39,490 nt of DNA from a virus. Below are positions 14,574 to 33,645 of the stretch, piece after piece. The notes below the pieces were generated by a model. That model was not told the origin of the DNA and made no database searches. It saw only the letters and a program-made list of their open reading frames with translations. Within the stretch, counting starts at the first letter, position 1, and each line of letters starts with the position of its first letter. The translations under genes and the position numbers were made by a program. The DNA lies in the IMG/VR virus record IMGVR_UViG_3300008120_000222, positions 1 to 39,490 of that record, one strand, 5' to 3'.

Positions 14574-14599
14574 AGATCGGGCCAATGGCCCGATCTTTT
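14574..14599 (+). terminator. Rho-independent terminator of the late operon
   Basis: AGATCGGGCC (14574-14583) and GGCCCGATCT (14587-14596) form a perfect 10-bp stem with an AAT loop, followed by a short T-run (14596-14599). It lies between the end of the virion gene on the plus strand and the stop codon of the GcrA-like gene on the minus strand, so it separates two converging transcription units. The T-run fits plus-strand transcription; on the minus strand the trailing sequence is only A/T-rich, so bidirectional action is possible but weaker. Confidence 0.9.
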
Positions 14600-15096
14600 C
14601 ATTTGGCGAACACTAGAGCGTTCTTCCGCAGGAAGATGCCTGACTTCTTCTTTCTTTCTCTTTTTTCTTCTGATCTTGGTTTTATGTAGCACAATTCTGC
14701 GTGAAACTCGCAGTATGAGTTTTTCTTGGCAGGCTGACAGCAGTAGACTGTTTTCTCTGCTGCAACTTCTCCTATCACAAACCGGCAAGAATCTGCTTTA
14801 AGTTCCATAAGAGTGTTCTTTATGGAACTAGTTTTCTGTGGCGTTATTGTCACAGATCTCCTGCGGATCATTTTGCCGTTTACAGCGATTAGTTTTATGT
14901 GCCTTTCTTTTTTCTTCAGAGGTTCTTTTCTGTTATTTTTAACGATACCGGGATTGCGCAAAAGCTTCTTGCGATTGACGTAACCCATAACAGAGCTACG
15001 AGTTGCGCCAATTTCCAAAGCAATCTGGCCCGAAGTGAAATGTTCGGCCCACATCTTTTCTATGCGCCTCTTTTTCTCTTCAGTCAGACTTCTCAT
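14599..15096 (-). CDS. GcrA-family transcription regulator
   Basis: The product has 165 residues with the two-part layout of GcrA, the alphaproteobacterial cell-cycle regulator that binds sigma-70 RNA polymerase and recognises GANTC promoters. The N-terminal DNA-binding helix-turn-helix is at about 4-47 (LTEEKKRRIEKMWAEHFTSG, QIALEIGATRSSVMGYVNRKKL; compare the W..G.SA.QIA..LG.VTRNAVIGKVHRLGL pattern of GcrA). The C-terminal Cys/His part is at about 95-140: TLMELKADSCRFVIGE, then YCCQPAKKNSYCEFHAELCYIKP, matching the CRWPIGDP and PYC..HA..AY core of the family (Cys104, Cys119, Cys120, Cys129, His132). The linker and the tail are Lys/Arg-rich. It is the last gene of the minus-strand block and ends against the terminator. 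Residues are read by eye; the family call is strong, the biological role in the phage is inferred. Confidence 0.85.
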   Translation of the reverse strand: MRSLTEEKKRRIEKMWAEHFTSGQIALEIGATRSSVMGYVNRKKLLRNPGIVKNNRKEPLKKKERHIKLIAVNGKMIRRRSVTITPQKTSSIKNTLMELKADSCRFVIGEVAAEKTVYCCQPAKKNSYCEFHAELCYIKPRSEEKRERKKKSGIFLRKNALVFAK

Positions 15097-17775: not shown

Positions 17776-17793
17776 TCAGCCCCCAAAGCGCAT
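17776..17793 (-). other. Five-codon minicistron ending 1 nt before the helicase ATG
   Basis: On the minus strand the last ATG of the 115-bp element opens a short frame MRFGG whose TGA is at 17778-17776, one base before the helicase ATG. In the other copy of the element the same ATG is the start of the nuclease gene. It may couple translation into the helicase or be chance; there is no direct evidence of translation. Confidence 0.3.
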
Positions 17794-17905
17794 TTTCCAT
17801 TTCCAATCCGTTTACGGATTTCACCTATTCCCCTTCTATTATTCTCTCTCTCTTATTTTTCTCTAGAGTGAGTGGAATTCAGGAGAGGAATGGAAATGGA
17901 AAATG
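17791..17905 (-). repeat. 115-bp element, copy A, with 18-bp terminal inverted repeats; probable control region
   Basis: The left end CATTTTCCATTTCCAATC is the reverse complement of the right end GAATGGAAATGGAAAATG except for one base. The 115 bp are closely similar to the reverse complement of 33093-33207: the first 15 and last 29 bases are identical and the blocks CCCCTTCTATT and the CT-repeat are shared. Inside is a perfect dyad AATCCGT-TT-ACGGATT (17805-17820). In minus orientation the element ends about 16 nt before the helicase start. Because both copies sit just before a gene in the same relative orientation, it is best read as a duplicated promoter/operator or replication-control element, not a transposon. 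Confidence 0.85.
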
Positions 17906-19265: not shown

Positions 19266-19487
19266 TTACTCGGATTTGCGGTTGGCGTGATCTTCGAGAT
19301 ATTGGCGGATCGTCAAATCTGAAAGACGCGGAACATAAATCGAAGTTCCGTTAAGCCATTCAGAAGCCTCACCTTCGCACCAGTAAACGTACCCTTCGCC
19401 TTTCACTAGTCGCTCAGAGTGTCCTGTTTTGGCGAGGATGTTGTTGACGTCTGAAACCTTGCGAGCAGGTCGATCTAAGTTGGTCAT
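19266..19487 (-). CDS. Hypothetical protein, 73 residues
   Basis: The start at 19487 is preceded by AGGAGAACGAAG, the same ribosome-binding leader as the gene at 21394. The product begins MTNLDRPARKVSDVNNILAKTG and carries an aromatic-rich centre (GYVYWCEGEASEWLNGTSIYV) and a helical end (LSDLTIRQYLEDHANRK). No family is recognised. It is the first gene of a unit with its own promoter and palindromic leader (19506-19567), so it is probably an early host-interaction or regulatory gene. Confidence 0.7.
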   Translation of the reverse strand: MTNLDRPARKVSDVNNILAKTGHSERLVKGEGYVYWCEGEASEWLNGTSIYVPRLSDLTIRQYLEDHANRKSE

Positions 19488-19505
19488 CTTCGTTCTCCTA
19501 TCTAC

Positions 19506-19520
19506 CCAGCGAATCGCTGG
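19506..19520 (-). promoter_or_regulatory. 15-bp perfect palindrome centred on GAATC in the leader of the 73-residue gene
   Basis: CCAGCGAATCGCTGG is a perfect inverted repeat (7 + 1 + 7) lying between the promoter and the ribosome-binding site. Its centre is GAATC, a GANTC site. As RNA it can form a CCAGCG/CGCTGG hairpin with a three-base loop; as DNA it could be an operator or methylation-sensitive site. The leader of the gene at 21394 has a related palindrome in the same place. Confidence 0.7.
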
Positions 19521-19524
19521 TAAA

Positions 19525-19567
19525 GTTAGTTAACGCCATTTCTAGAAAAAAGAAAACAAGAAAATTG
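19525..19567 (-). promoter_or_regulatory. Predicted promoter with dyad over the -10 box
   Basis: On the minus strand the block CAATTTTCTTGTTTTCTTTT (19567-19548) contains a -35-like TTTTCT (19556-19551), a 17-nt spacer and a -10-like TTAACT (19533-19528). The -10 sits in a perfect dyad GTTA-GT-TAAC (19525-19534). The 20-nt block is identical to that at 21455-21474. Transcription would enter the gene at 19487. Prediction rests on repetition and spacing, not on a start-site map. Confidence 0.6.
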
Positions 19568-19609
19568 AGATGGGGCCAAAATAATTTCGACCCCATCTAT
19601 GGTTCAGTT

Positions 19610-20152
19610 TTAGCCGATCACAATATTGCTGTGGGCCAGATCCCAAGCCAGATCCTGCCGACGCCCGCCCTGACGGATGAATTCCTCGTAGGTGACGCCA
19701 TTCTTGGCATTGATAATTATTTCCATGGACTTGTAGCCATGGGTGCCTTCTCTGCGAGGGTTGGCGTTGATTCCAGGAGCCGCACGGATCACTTTGCCAT
19801 TGAAAGACGAGGTTCGGCCTTTGCGCTTTTCATTCGCTTCTTCTTTTTTGACAGCTGCGTTCTGCATTTCATTCTCCTGTTGATCTGCTGATTTAATCAT
19901 CTTGGCTTTGGCCTCAGCAAGAGCCAAAAGCCTCTCCGCAGCCGTCTTACGGTCGCGGAAACCTTTTATCTGGTTGGCAACGTTGTGTTGGTTGTAGAAG
20001 TTGACCATTTGGTCAATTGAGATGCGCGCGTCAACAAGGTCTGACGAATCTTGCACAAGCACCAACCCATTGCCGAGATTGATCGCCGCGCGCTTTGTCG
20101 CACAGACGAAAATCTCTTTTGTTGCTTGGAAGTCGAAAGCGAAAGTTCTCAT
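19610..20152 (-). CDS. Hypothetical protein, 180 residues
   Basis: The start is set at 20152, six bases after AGGAG; an ATG two codons earlier overlaps the Shine-Dalgarno. The N-terminal 90 residues mix strands (FAFDFQATKEIFVCATKRAAINLG) and helix with basic patches (KGFRDRKTAAERLLALAEAKAKM). A low-complexity charged linker follows (ENEMQNAAVKKEEANEKRKGR). The C-terminus (REGTHGYKSMEIIINAKNGVTYEEFIRQGGRRQDLAWDLAHSNI) looks like a small helix-turn-helix type domain that recurs in phage proteins, so DNA binding is possible but unproven. It has its own promoter at 20178-20215. Confidence 0.65.
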   Translation of the reverse strand: MRTFAFDFQATKEIFVCATKRAAINLGNGLVLVQDSSDLVDARISIDQMVNFYNQHNVANQIKGFRDRKTAAERLLALAEAKAKMIKSADQQENEMQNAAVKKEEANEKRKGRTSSFNGKVIRAAPGINANPRREGTHGYKSMEIIINAKNGVTYEEFIRQGGRRQDLAWDLAHSNIVIG

Positions 20153-20173
20153 CTTCATCTCCTATCTAACACT

Positions 20174-20215
20174 AGTTATTTAACTCTGCTCCTAAAGAAA
20201 AGGAAACAGAATTTG
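20174..20215 (-). promoter_or_regulatory. Predicted promoter with dyad over the -10 box
   Basis: On the minus strand TTCTGTTTCCTTTTCT (from 20211) contains TTTCCT (20206-20201), then a 17-nt spacer, then TTAAAT (20183-20178). The -10 is inside the perfect dyad AGTTA-TT-TAACT (20174-20185). Layout and spacing equal those at 19525-19567 and 21431-21474; the -35 block differs at a few bases. The leader that follows (TTAGATAGGAGATGAAG) resembles the others. Confidence 0.55.
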
Positions 20216-20216
20216 T

Positions 20217-20636
20217 TCAGTCGTTGATGCTTGGGACAGGTCTTTTTTGTTTTTTGGACATTTCCGTCAGTCTTTCTTCCAGCCGCTGGCGATTGATCGC
20301 CATGGCTGCTTCGTCTGGATCCCAGTCATTGAACAGGTGCTTGGGGATTCCTATTGCCAATCCTTCGATTTCTGTCAGGTTGGGGTTGCGCTTGCGCTTC
20401 TTCAACTCTGCGACAATCTGGGCCTGTCTCTTCAGGCAGTAGCCCAGCCGAGTGTAGAAGAATTTGACATGCCCGGTGCCGAGCGTGTATTGCTGGGGAG
20501 CTTCGACCTCTCTCGGATCGACACCTTTCTCGAGAGCCTTGCGCACGAGCCCGAAGACACGCGGCAGCTCGTAGTATTCAGCAGCGAGGTGCTTGTCGTG
20601 CAGCTCCTGCGGCGGGACACAGTTGATCCGGGTCAT
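20217..20636 (-). CDS. denV: T4 endonuclease V-type pyrimidine dimer DNA glycosylase/AP lyase
   Basis: The product has 139 residues, like T4 DenV (138), and aligns to it without gaps over the N-terminal 30: MTRIN, then E11-L12, H16-L17, A19-E20-Y21, E23-LPRVFG. The catalytic residues of the family are kept at the same numbers: Thr2, which becomes the N-terminal nucleophile after removal of Met, and Glu23; Arg3 and Arg26 are kept too. Later it shares ILGAGHV-like YTLGTGHVKFFYTRLGY and a KRQ motif. The enzyme removes UV-induced cyclobutane pyrimidine dimers and nicks the abasic site. The aromatic C-terminus of T4 DenV is replaced by a basic MSKKQKRPVPSIND tail. The start at 20636 overlaps the stop of the upstream gene, excluding the longer frame. 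Confidence 0.93.
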   Translation of the reverse strand: MTRINCVPPQELHDKHLAAEYYELPRVFGLVRKALEKGVDPREVEAPQQYTLGTGHVKFFYTRLGYCLKRQAQIVAELKKRKRNPNLTEIEGLAIGIPKHLFNDWDPDEAAMAINRQRLEERLTEMSKKQKRPVPSIND

Positions 20637-20842
20637 CAGTGATAGTTCTCGATGATGAAGAGACGGGCGGAATCGAGCGAGGGAAAATACTGGATCTTCC
20701 CGTGCACGGTCATGGCGCGATATGCGATGCGTTTGTCTTTGTGCAGTTTGGTCTTGTTGATCCAACCTGCCTCGCTGCTGAAGTAAGTGACACGATAGAA
20801 GTTGGGTTCGATTTGCTCCATGGCGATTGGGTTCTTGCTCAT
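20636..20842 (-). CDS. Hypothetical protein, 68 residues
   Basis: Start at 20842, after GGAGGAAGGACA. The product MSKNPIAMEQIEPNFYRVTYFSSEAGWINKTKLHKDK continues with strands and ends IENYH. It looks like a small alpha/beta protein with several Tyr/Phe residues; no family recognised. Its stop overlaps the DenV ATG and its start overlaps the upstream stop, so it is translated in one operon with DenV, which could mean a partner role, but nothing in the sequence shows one. Confidence 0.7.
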   Translation of the reverse strand: MSKNPIAMEQIEPNFYRVTYFSSEAGWINKTKLHKDKRIAYRAMTVHGKIQYFPSLDSARLFIIENYH

Positions 20843-21126
20843 TGTCCTTCCTCCACGCAAGCGTCGTAGATCGACTGTTGGAGTTTATGGTTCTTAGTGA
20901 TCGTGCGGCGGATGGCAGCATCGAGCCAGTGGCCCTCCGGCAGCACCATCGGTCTGTCGTTCGTGTCGATTTTAATGCAATCGACATACCAATCGTTGAT
21001 TTGGTCGATTTCTATATAGAGCACAGCCTGCATAACAATAACGGTTGGGAAATCGTAGAGTTCTAATTCTTCTACGACATAGCAGGTCGGATAGAGTTTC
21101 GTTTCTGGTTTGTCGGGGTTGAACAT
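20839..21126 (-). CDS. Hypothetical protein, 95 residues
   Basis: Start at 21126 after AGATGGAGATTAAA. The product is acidic at the N-terminus (MFNPDKPETKLYPTCYVVEELELYD), with a beta-strand-like centre (FPTVIVMQAVLYIEIDQINDWYVDCIKIDT) and a helical tail with an acidic end. No family recognised. Its last bases overlap the start of the next gene; the first ATG at 21138 lacks a good ribosome-binding site. Confidence 0.65.
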   Translation of the reverse strand: MFNPDKPETKLYPTCYVVEELELYDFPTVIVMQAVLYIEIDQINDWYVDCIKIDTNDRPMVLPEGHWLDAAIRRTITKNHKLQQSIYDACVEEGQ

Positions 21127-21169
21127 TTTAATCTCCATCTGAGAGAGGGGAGGGAGCCGAAGCTCCCTT

Positions 21170-21394
21170 TTAGTTAGTGACGTAGAGGCCGGAGTGAGCG
21201 TAGGTGCCGACCGCCCAATCGTTGCTGGAGGCTATGATGAGCGGAACGTAGGTGTTGTCGGGCTTGCGGTAGATCATCCACTTTGAACCGTTCTGCTCGA
21301 CCAAATCCATAACCTTGTTCAAGCGCGCCATGGCACCCTTCTCGGTCTTGAGGCCGGGGACATTGTCGAGCCAGTTGTTCAGGTTGGTCATCAT
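21170..21394 (-). CDS. Hypothetical protein, 74 residues, first gene of the minus-strand block
   Basis: Start at 21394 after GGAGAACGAAG, the same signal as at 19487. The product MMTNLNNWLDNVPGLKTEKGAMARLNKVMDLVEQNGSKW is helical, followed by strand-like DNTYVPLIIASSNDWAVGTYAHSGLYV. No family recognised. It is the first minus-strand gene next to the divergent control region, the usual place for an immediate-early gene. Confidence 0.7.
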   Translation of the reverse strand: MMTNLNNWLDNVPGLKTEKGAMARLNKVMDLVEQNGSKWMIYRKPDNTYVPLIIASSNDWAVGTYAHSGLYVTN

Positions 21395-21637
21395 CTTCGT
21401 TCTCCATCTACCTGCCGAATCGGTCAGTAAAGGCATTATGCCTGATTCCATCAGAAAAGAAAACAAGAAAATTGCTCAAATTGAATAAAAATTTCTGCTG
21501 AAAAAACAAACAGTTACGACAATTACGCGGAAAATCCCAAAAAGTCCGTGCTTTTTTCCAAAAGCTGGGGCATAATCGAAAATGTCTCAAAAACGGTTTC
21601 GGAATCGACCGGACCTAAGCAGACAAGGAGCATAGAT
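21395..21637. promoter_or_regulatory. Divergent control region between minus-strand early block and plus-strand replication block
   Basis: This 243-bp gap holds, from left: a minus-strand leader with palindrome CCGAATCGG (21415-21423) flanked by CTG/CAG; a minus-strand promoter (21431-21474); an AT-rich stretch with A-tracts; a possible plus-strand -10 CATAAT at 21571-21576 without a convincing -35; CGGT...ACCG around GAATC (21594-21611); and AAGGAG (21625-21630) for the gene at 21638. Three GANTC sites (21417-21421, 21444-21448, 21602-21606) occur in this gap, where about one would be expected by chance. An origin of replication could also lie here; no iterons were seen. Confidence 0.65.
21431..21474 (-). 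promoter_or_regulatory. Predicted minus-strand promoter with dyads
   Basis: The minus strand carries CAATTTTCTTGTTTTCTTTT (21474-21455), identical to the block at 19548-19567. TTTTCT (21463-21458), a 17-nt spacer and CATAAT (21440-21435) give a sigma-70-like layout. The -10 box lies in the dyad AGGCAT-T-ATGCCT (21431-21443), and CTGAT-TCC-ATCAG (21442-21454) fills the spacer. Dyads over both elements suggest a repressor site. Confidence 0.6.
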
Positions 21638-22423
21638 ATGGCAAAGAAGCAAGAAGTAGCCGTCGCTGAAAAGAGCAATGCCGTCGTCGTGGCGGATCAG
21701 GCTTTTGAGGCTTTCGCGGGGGAGGGTCTTGAGAACGTCACGAGTCGTGACCTCATCATACCTCGCCTGACCATCCTTCAGGCACTCAGCCCGCAGGTCC
21801 AGCCGAAGAAGCCTGAATACATCAACGGTGCTAAAGTTGGGGACATCTGCGATGTTGGCACGCAGGAGATCTTCGAGGCTCCGCTACTGTTCCTCCCGGT
21901 TCACTACATCAAGCAGTACCTGGAGTGGGCTCCGCGCAGCTCTGGCAAGGGTCTTGTCAAGATTCACGACGACGCGTCGATCTTGGACTTGTGCAAACCT
22001 GACGAAAAGAACCGACCCACCACACCGGACGGTAATTATATTGCCGAGACCGCTCAGTTCTTCGGACTCAATATGTCGGCTGGCGGGCGGAAATGTTTCC
22101 TTCCGATGGCTTCCACGCAGCTCAAGAAGGCTCGGCGCTGGCTGACGCTCGCTACATCTGAAAAGGTGCAGCGCGCTGATGGCTCTACGTTCACTCCTCC
22201 GTTGTTCTATCGGGTCTACAACCTTTCGGTTGTCGACGAGAGCAACGCCGAGGGCGATTGGTCGGGCTGGAAGGTCGAGCGTGGTGATCGCCTTCAGGAC
22301 ATGGGCGATAACTGGCGCGATCATTACAATGAGGCGATTGCGTTCCGCGACTCGCTGAAGCGTGGCGAAGTCCGTGGCGACATCGGCGCTGAAGAAGAAA
22401 GCTCTTCCGAAGCAGCTATGTGA
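21638..22423 (+). CDS. Conserved phage protein; candidate ssDNA-binding protein
   Basis: The product has 261 residues and starts at 21638, with AAGGAG seven bases upstream. The segment FAGEGLENVTSRDLIIPRLTILQALSPQV is conserved in the first gene of many phage replication blocks; the role of that family is not established to my knowledge. The middle is beta-rich (FEAPLLFLPVHYIKQYLEW, LFYRVYNLSVVDE, WSGWKVERGDRLQD). The C-terminal tail is acidic (GAEEESSSEAAM), as in single-stranded DNA-binding proteins that use an acidic tail to contact partners. Position ahead of polymerase and primase fits an SSB-like role, but no OB-fold signature can be shown by eye. Confidence 0.6.
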   Translation: MAKKQEVAVAEKSNAVVVADQAFEAFAGEGLENVTSRDLIIPRLTILQALSPQVQPKKPEYINGAKVGDICDVGTQEIFEAPLLFLPVHYIKQYLEWAPRSSGKGLVKIHDDASILDLCKPDEKNRPTTPDGNYIAETAQFFGLNMSAGGRKCFLPMASTQLKKARRWLTLATSEKVQRADGSTFTPPLFYRVYNLSVVDESNAEGDWSGWKVERGDRLQDMGDNWRDHYNEAIAFRDSLKRGEVRGDIGAEEESSSEAAM

Positions 22424-33092: not shown

Positions 33093-33207
33093 CATTTTCC
33101 ATTTCCATTCCTCTCCTGAATCTAGGGTACTTTCTATAGAAAGAGAGAGAGAGAGTAAATAGAAGGGGAGTTAGGGAAATCGGTGTAACGAATGGAAATG
33201 GAAAATG
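33093..33207 (+). repeat. 115-bp element, copy B, with perfect 18-bp terminal inverted repeats; probable control region
   Basis: CATTTTCCATTTCCATTC (33093-33110) and GAATGGAAATGGAAAATG (33190-33207) are perfect reverse complements. The element is the inverted counterpart of 17791-17905, equal in length. Inside is the palindrome CTTTCTATAGAAAG (33130-33143), an AG-repeat (about 33140-33156) and GTAAATAGAAGGGG. GAATC occurs once (33118-33122). The last ATG of the element is the ATG at 33205 where the nuclease gene starts, so the element forms its whole 5' region. Flanking target-site duplications are not seen. Confidence 0.85.
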
Positions 33208-33645
33208 CGCGAAACAACCCATATGAAGAAATGGATTCGTGACAACTGGGATGGTTGGATCGAGTCGTATGAGCCGAGGCTTGGGTCGAGTGTCGGAATA
33301 CCTGACATCCAAATCGTTGTTGATGGAAAGCTGGTGCCGATTGAGCTGAAGGTTGCAGACCTGAGCGATGGAATTCTTTGCTCGTCTGAGATCAGACCGC
33401 CTCAGATAAACTGGCATCGCAATCTTGCTGCGCATGATGTTCTGTCACTGTTCTTGTTTGGTGTCGGAAAAGGCAATGTGCCAGAAAGGTTGTTTGCTGC
33501 CCGAGGTGACAAAATTGCCAATTGGTCAGCTGGATTTGACATTCGGAATTTGGAAGAGGTTTCTCCTAACAAGAGGAACTTTTCTGGCAGTTTGCGAGAA
33601 TTGATCAGATATATGCTGAGCACAATGGAGGCCAAATCCAAATAA
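33205..33645 (+). CDS. PD-(D/E)XK nuclease-like protein
   Basis: The product has 146 residues. It carries GIPDIQIVVDGKLVPIELKVADL, where Asp34 and the Glu47-Leu-Lys49 motif form the metal-binding core of PD-(D/E)XK nucleases such as VRR-NUC and Holliday junction resolvases; a QINWHRNL segment with a conserved-looking Gln follows, as in VRR-NUC-like enzymes. The start at 33205 is the final ATG of the 115-bp element; ATG at 33223 (MKKWIRDNW) is an alternative. It lies before the terminase genes, where a resolvase or nuclease could prepare replicated DNA for packaging. Confidence 0.75.
   Translation: MRETTHMKKWIRDNWDGWIESYEPRLGSSVGIPDIQIVVDGKLVPIELKVADLSDGILCSSEIRPPQINWHRNLAAHDVLSLFLFGVGKGNVPERLFAARGDKIANWSAGFDIRNLEEVSPNKRNFSGSLRELIRYMLSTMEAKSK

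Follow-up and report, generated by a model that had tools for sequence, protein, structure and literature searches.

In E. coli a message with a paired 5' end is known to be protected, and the demand of RppH and RNase E for a 5' end that is single-stranded accounts for the stabilisation produced by 5' structures (reviewed in PMC3997798). In Caulobacter, promoters activated by GcrA are reported to share the extended motif YGAKTCG, and sites both upstream and downstream can work (PMC7987155). The viral locus described here resembles both systems, as it carries palindromes with GANTC at their centres in the leaders of early genes.

The sequence is a linear viral record of 39,490 bases, the whole of which we call the window. 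It encodes a terminase, a DnaE-type polymerase, a VapE/DUF5906-type primase-helicase region, a Thy1 thymidylate synthase, a SNF2-type helicase, a DUF932 protein and proteins similar to gp33 and gp34 of Pam3. The gp34-like and DUF932 proteins served as queries in the scans that gathered close relatives, and for the relatives used here identity in the query protein was mostly 53-92%. A search of cultured phages by DNA found no near relative of the window, and a search of bacterial genomes for related prophages, as a clue to the host, found none. The host of the phage is likely to be alphaproteobacterial.

A first-pass annotation, made from the sequence alone, had placed the two palindromes between promoter and ribosome-binding site, and both are where it put them. 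The first, CCAGCGAATCGCTGG, lies at 19506-19520, and the second, at 21412-21427, is interrupted and reads CTGACCGATTCGGCAG on the minus strand; both match their description exactly. On that strand each has a promoter-like motif upstream and a ribosome-binding site downstream, followed by a small gene. One gene encodes a predicted early protein of 73 amino acids (MTNLDRPARK..., 19266..19487, minus strand), which had no match in Pfam. The other encodes 74 amino acids (MMTNLNNWLDN..., 21170..21394, minus strand) and shares the frame of an open reading frame of 98 amino acids (21170-21466); its start was taken at the later ATG, which follows a ribosome-binding site. Small early proteins that otherwise differ begin MTNL or similar in the window (19487, 21394) and in two relatives (G017 5338; G004 2281). 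The likeness of the two leaders, which read TTTAC, palindrome, GGTAGAT, GGAGAACGAAG and ATG on the minus strand, goes further than the annotation had noted, taking in an identical upstream stretch of 20 nt (CAATTTTCTTGTTTTCTTTT) and common first codons (ATGACCAAC). It looks as if the leader cassette and the opening codons of the gene had been copied together.

A recurrent early-promoter motif, TTGTTTTCTTTT-N9-TGGCG-YWTAAT, precedes 42 distinct leaders in the window phage and its relatives. The position weight matrix was built from a first set of leaders and then used to find the promoter in relatives; its consensus is TTGTTTTCTTTTCTGTCGGAATGGCGCATAAT, and the spacing from TTGTTTTCTTTT to TGGCG is fixed at 9 nt. 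Both palindromic leaders of the window belong to the training set, and their motifs score 36.0 (TTGTTTTCTTTTTTCTAGAAATGGCGTTAACT, 19528..19559, minus strand, ahead of the 73-residue gene) and 35.0 (TTGTTTTCTTTTCTGATGGAATCAGGCATAAT, 21435..21466, minus strand), compared with a maximum of 13.1 in the shuffled window. A third motif, outside the training set, scores 22.2 (20178..20209, minus strand); although of the same type, it serves a leader, that of the gene at 20158, with neither a clear hairpin nor a GANTC. When all viral contigs were searched with a degenerate form of the promoter pattern, most of the matches were due to chance. Directly upstream of the promoter of the 19487 gene there is a strong terminator-like stem, AGATGGGGTC...GGCCCCATCT (19568-19598, minus strand), and the two early units therefore seem to be transcribed separately.

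The window has another repeated element. Inverted 16-bp repeats, ATTTTCCATTTCCATT and AATGGAAATGGAAAAT, lie about 97 bp apart and flank GA-rich promoter-like DNA at 17788-17905, before the SNF2 helicase gene and with one arm imperfect, and at 33093-33210, before an open reading frame at 33205. They also occur in L240 (15694), L242 (17782) and L248 (15320 and 15416), and are possibly a paired operator or a second class of promoter.

Transcription usually starts at a pyrimidine-purine step. Of the 42 leaders, 38 have a pyrimidine at the sixth nucleotide past the -10 box and 39 have a purine at the seventh. Because this signature sits there, we placed the start 7 nt past the -10 box, and on sequence grounds transcription probably begins at that nucleotide. 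The predicted +1 of the first leader is the A at 19521, leading into the 5'-terminal hairpin CCAGCG(ATT)CGCTGG (19506..19521, minus strand, with the +1), the tip of which is the GANTC; pairing and covariation are the evidence for this element. The single-stranded leader GTAGATAGGAGAACGAAG follows (19488..19505, minus strand), with the Shine-Dalgarno sequence GGAG, and is common to the 21394 leader. In the second leader the predicted +1 is the A at 21428 and the hairpin is CTG-A-CC(GATTC)GG-CAG, with a bulged A (21412..21428, minus strand); its predicted free energy is -5.7 kcal/mol for +1 to +34, among the weaker of the set.

Across the phage family the hairpin keeps its position. In 27 of the 42, a stem with 4 or more Watson-Crick pairs begins at nucleotide 7-10 past the -10 box, which would be about +1 to +4, a few nucleotides from the 5' end at most, if transcripts start at nucleotide 7. 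The mean hairpin score is 11.4, compared with 7.5 ± 0.6 in dinucleotide shuffles, and none of 300 shuffles scored as high. RNAalifold found no consensus structure in an automatic alignment of 22 leaders, probably owing to their differing loop lengths, and we therefore swapped arms between leaders. In 32 leaders the own arms scored 13.2 and permuted arms 9.0 ± 0.4, with none of 2000 permutations as good, figures that overstate independence because the leaders of one genome are partly duplicates. The hairpin is optional and not required by all relatives, since in L227, L230 and G013 this promoter is followed by short leaders that lack the hairpin.

Pairing is thus kept while the sequence varies, and the mismatches point to RNA. 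On the sense strand G.U was tolerated 8 times and A.C twice (p = 0.03), the asymmetry to be expected of RNA; a dyad in DNA would not tell them apart. This bias argues against the palindromes being DNA operators of a phage repressor, as does the difference between half-sites inside one genome: G004 alone has five stems (CCGGCC/GGTCGG, CTGGCCG/CGGTCAG, CTGG/CCAG, CGGTC/GACCG and TGGC/GCCA). Operators would account for dyad symmetry adjoining the transcription start, but they were already disfavoured and we regard them as highly improbable.

The first-pass annotation had preferred a methylation-sensitive switch, and had named relatives that keep the hairpin and lose GANTC as the observation that would count against it. 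Such relatives exist. The hairpin is retained and the tip GANTC gone in G003, G004, L008, L030 and G016. Leaders with a hairpin of this kind read CCGACCG(AGG)TGGTCGG, GTGATC(AGTT)GATCAC, TGGCCG(ATT)TGGTCA, CGGTC(GGTTT)GACCG, GGTTC(GAGG)GAACC, ATCGGTC(AACGG)GACCGAT and GCCAGCG(AGG)CGCTGGC, among others. Several tips have G-U in place of the window's G-C (GAGGT, GATTT, GGTTT), which destroys GANTC and keeps the RNA pair. The converse, a leader with the tip GANTC and the hairpin lost, was not seen.

We think it likely that the palindromes are 5'-terminal RNA hairpins of a repeated early-promoter cassette, shielding early mRNA while the ribosome site stays open. The stabilising 5' hairpin, which the annotation had offered as the alternative to its switch, is thus the better supported of its two explanations. 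The cassette would set the transcription start 7 nt past the -10 box, so that the RNA enters a stem of 4-7 bp within its first one to four nucleotides. A short loop, often beginning with A, would lie behind a closing G-C or G-U pair, and downstream of the stem a short unpaired stretch would lead to the Shine-Dalgarno sequence. RppH and the 5' sensor of RNase E would act poorly on the paired 5' end, which would give longer-lived early mRNAs, and the compact hairpin would keep the ribosome site free. A protective role fits, because the predicted stem starts at +1 or +2 with an open Shine-Dalgarno sequence after it; protection is what we infer from that structure. The tip G-(A-N-U)-C would be one of several tips in use, inherited and copied with the cassette, and GANTC would appear for that reason.

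An RNA hairpin might instead be bound by a phage or host protein that recognises the GA at the start of the loop and switches early translation. The hairpin does lie immediately 5' of the ribosome-binding site, and many tips begin GA regardless of what comes next. The arms and loops vary greatly in length and sequence (AATCAA, AATCGA, GCGA, AACGG), unlike the operator of a protein, and we found no candidate protein; such a switch seems to us improbable.

GANTC itself was counted at several scales. The annotation's three sites in the gap 21395-21637 are present, at 21417, 21444 and 21602, where about 0.7 would be expected at the density of the window (Poisson P of about 0.03, uncorrected). The second (21444-21448) falls between the -35 and -10 elements of the promoter at 21435..21466. 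Enrichment does not extend to the whole genome, which is depleted in GANTC, with 111 sites against 189 expected from trinucleotides, as are the genomes of relatives; nor does it extend to intergenic DNA in general, where there are 8 sites against 6.7 expected. The local excess that the annotation saw does hold in the early promoters of the closest relatives, a single clade, where 26 promoters have 17 sites against 3.1 expected from the rest of the same genomes, about 5-fold, and 16 of the 26 have at least one. Among the 16 palindromes of this form TANTA alone is more enriched, and the AT-rich -10 box favours it. Most of the 17 sites recur at one of two places, either at the hairpin tip or as a GATTC beside the -10 box (G016, G017, L030). 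To judge from the sequences these copies look inherited, which leaves few independent gains of GANTC, and as most are the inherited hairpin tip the enrichment is not independent support for methylation.

In two relatives GANTC has almost gone, with 12 sites against 182 expected in G026 (40,000 bases read) and 3 against 37 in L229. This near-removal suggests strong selection by a restriction or methylation system of the host.

The annotation had also linked the palindromes to a GcrA-like gene beside them. The gene is a genuine homologue (165 amino acids, 14599..15096, minus strand; PF07750, E 8e-16), though it lies about 4.4 kb away and is not adjacent. Its product has the N-terminal DNA-binding and C-terminal sigma-binding parts, and aligns in both with Caulobacter GcrA (7ye1 and 5yiu; in 7ye1, residues 3-45 and 95-146). 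There are further homologues in G002, G010, G013 and G016. With such a protein a methylation switch can be pictured, in which CcrM of the host marks the promoter GANTC and GcrA, from host or phage, reads the mark and raises early transcription; in a variant, the mark perhaps acts on incoming methylated virion DNA only. The CGATTCG at both window leaders fits YGAKTCG (PMC7987155), the promoters hold their excess of GANTC although whole genomes avoid it, the tip shows all four N variants across leaders, and two promoters of G016 that lack a tip GANTC have one beside the -10 box.

These points are outweighed by what happens in equivalent promoters of relatives. GANTC is missing from many leaders that retain the hairpin, as in G003, G004 and L008, the G.U changes at the tip abolish it while sparing the RNA pair, and two promoters of G013, which bears a GcrA, lack it altogether. 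Away from the tip there are only about four independent gains, near expectation. YGAKTCG occurs 29 times in the window, both strands counted, and mostly in genes, since the intergenic total of GANTC is only 8. A search of nine records for a phage-borne N6/N4 methylase of PF01555 found none, which also counts against the switch. We consider it unlikely. It is also unlikely that the tip has a dual use, with virion DNA that the previous host had methylated at GANTC being read by the phage GcrA while the same palindrome protects the mRNA; early promoters would then be active on incoming DNA and silent on new unmethylated copies.

The third GANTC of the gap (21602-21606) belongs to a different element, separate from the palindromes. 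It falls within a 46-nt leader RNA on the plus strand (21584..21630), GUCU-CAAAAACGG-hairpin-CCUAAGC-AGAC-AAGGAG, ahead of the gene for the gp34-like protein (261 amino acids, 21638..22423, plus strand; PF23977, E 1e-54). The consensus is GNNN-CAAAARUGG-hairpin-CCYAAG-NNNC-AGGAG, one per genome. In relatives a 4-bp outer stem runs from the predicted transcript start, the strands CAAAA and YAAG are conserved, and an inner hairpin precedes the ribosome-binding site; the outer stem is 100% paired in all sequences, with compensatory changes in 3 of its 4 pairs. A covariance model (R1) built from ten leaders gives the window RNA, a member of that set, 61.9 bits. In relatives outside the building set it finds one copy in each genome, immediately ahead of the gp34 gene (L009, L014, L224, L227, L228, L230, L233 and L234); genomes with the RNA include L003, L006, L007, L008, L222, L013, L015, L227, L230, L233 and others. 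The GANTC inside it is found in the window only and not in relatives.

Rfam, at its gathering score, holds no family for the region 21380-21700 or for the whole window, and when all viral contigs were searched with a pattern for this RNA, none of the 45 matches fitted the model in full. The RNA is possibly an autogenous translational operator, or else some other cis-regulator. The predicted fold of the gp34-like protein (mean pLDDT 65) is too uncertain to name a function, and a comparison with solved structures gave no match; there were only weak viral matches, one of them annotated as a single-stranded DNA-binding protein. As a candidate for a new regulatory RNA, the gp34 leader, absent from Rfam, is to be preferred to the palindromes.

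If the palindromes are 5'-terminal hairpins, an uncultured group of phages starts many early messages at a paired 5' end, which would be a simple and portable device for strong and durable early expression. It would also mean that a DNA-methylation motif can become enriched in promoters by way of RNA structure.

Comparison with known systems places the elements as follows. The gp34 leader, and only that leader, resembles the autogenous operator of T4 gene 32 in being a structured 5' leader that abuts the ribosome site of a replication-region gene; unlike it, the gp34 RNA has a 4-bp outer stem and conserved CAAAA and YAAG, and any protein that binds it is putative. The phage is like those of the phiCbK type in having a GcrA of its own (the phiCbK case is cited in PMC7987155), but it is different and smaller, with Pam3 gp33- and gp34-like genes. 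GcrA/CcrM promoters of Alphaproteobacteria have GANTC near the start, as here, and a GcrA homologue in the genome, and CGATTCG fits their extended motif; here, in contrast, GANTC is lost in many equivalent leaders and lies within an RNA hairpin, and no methylase gene was found. The 5' stem-loops of E. coli ompA and papA are alike in having a stem a few nucleotides from the 5' end, arms that may vary if paired and an open ribosome site. Unlike them, the hairpins described here, with a putative effect on decay, form a repeated cassette of many early genes in one phage family. The stabilising 5'-terminal stem-loop is already a known kind of element, to which the cassette of this family would add a new case.
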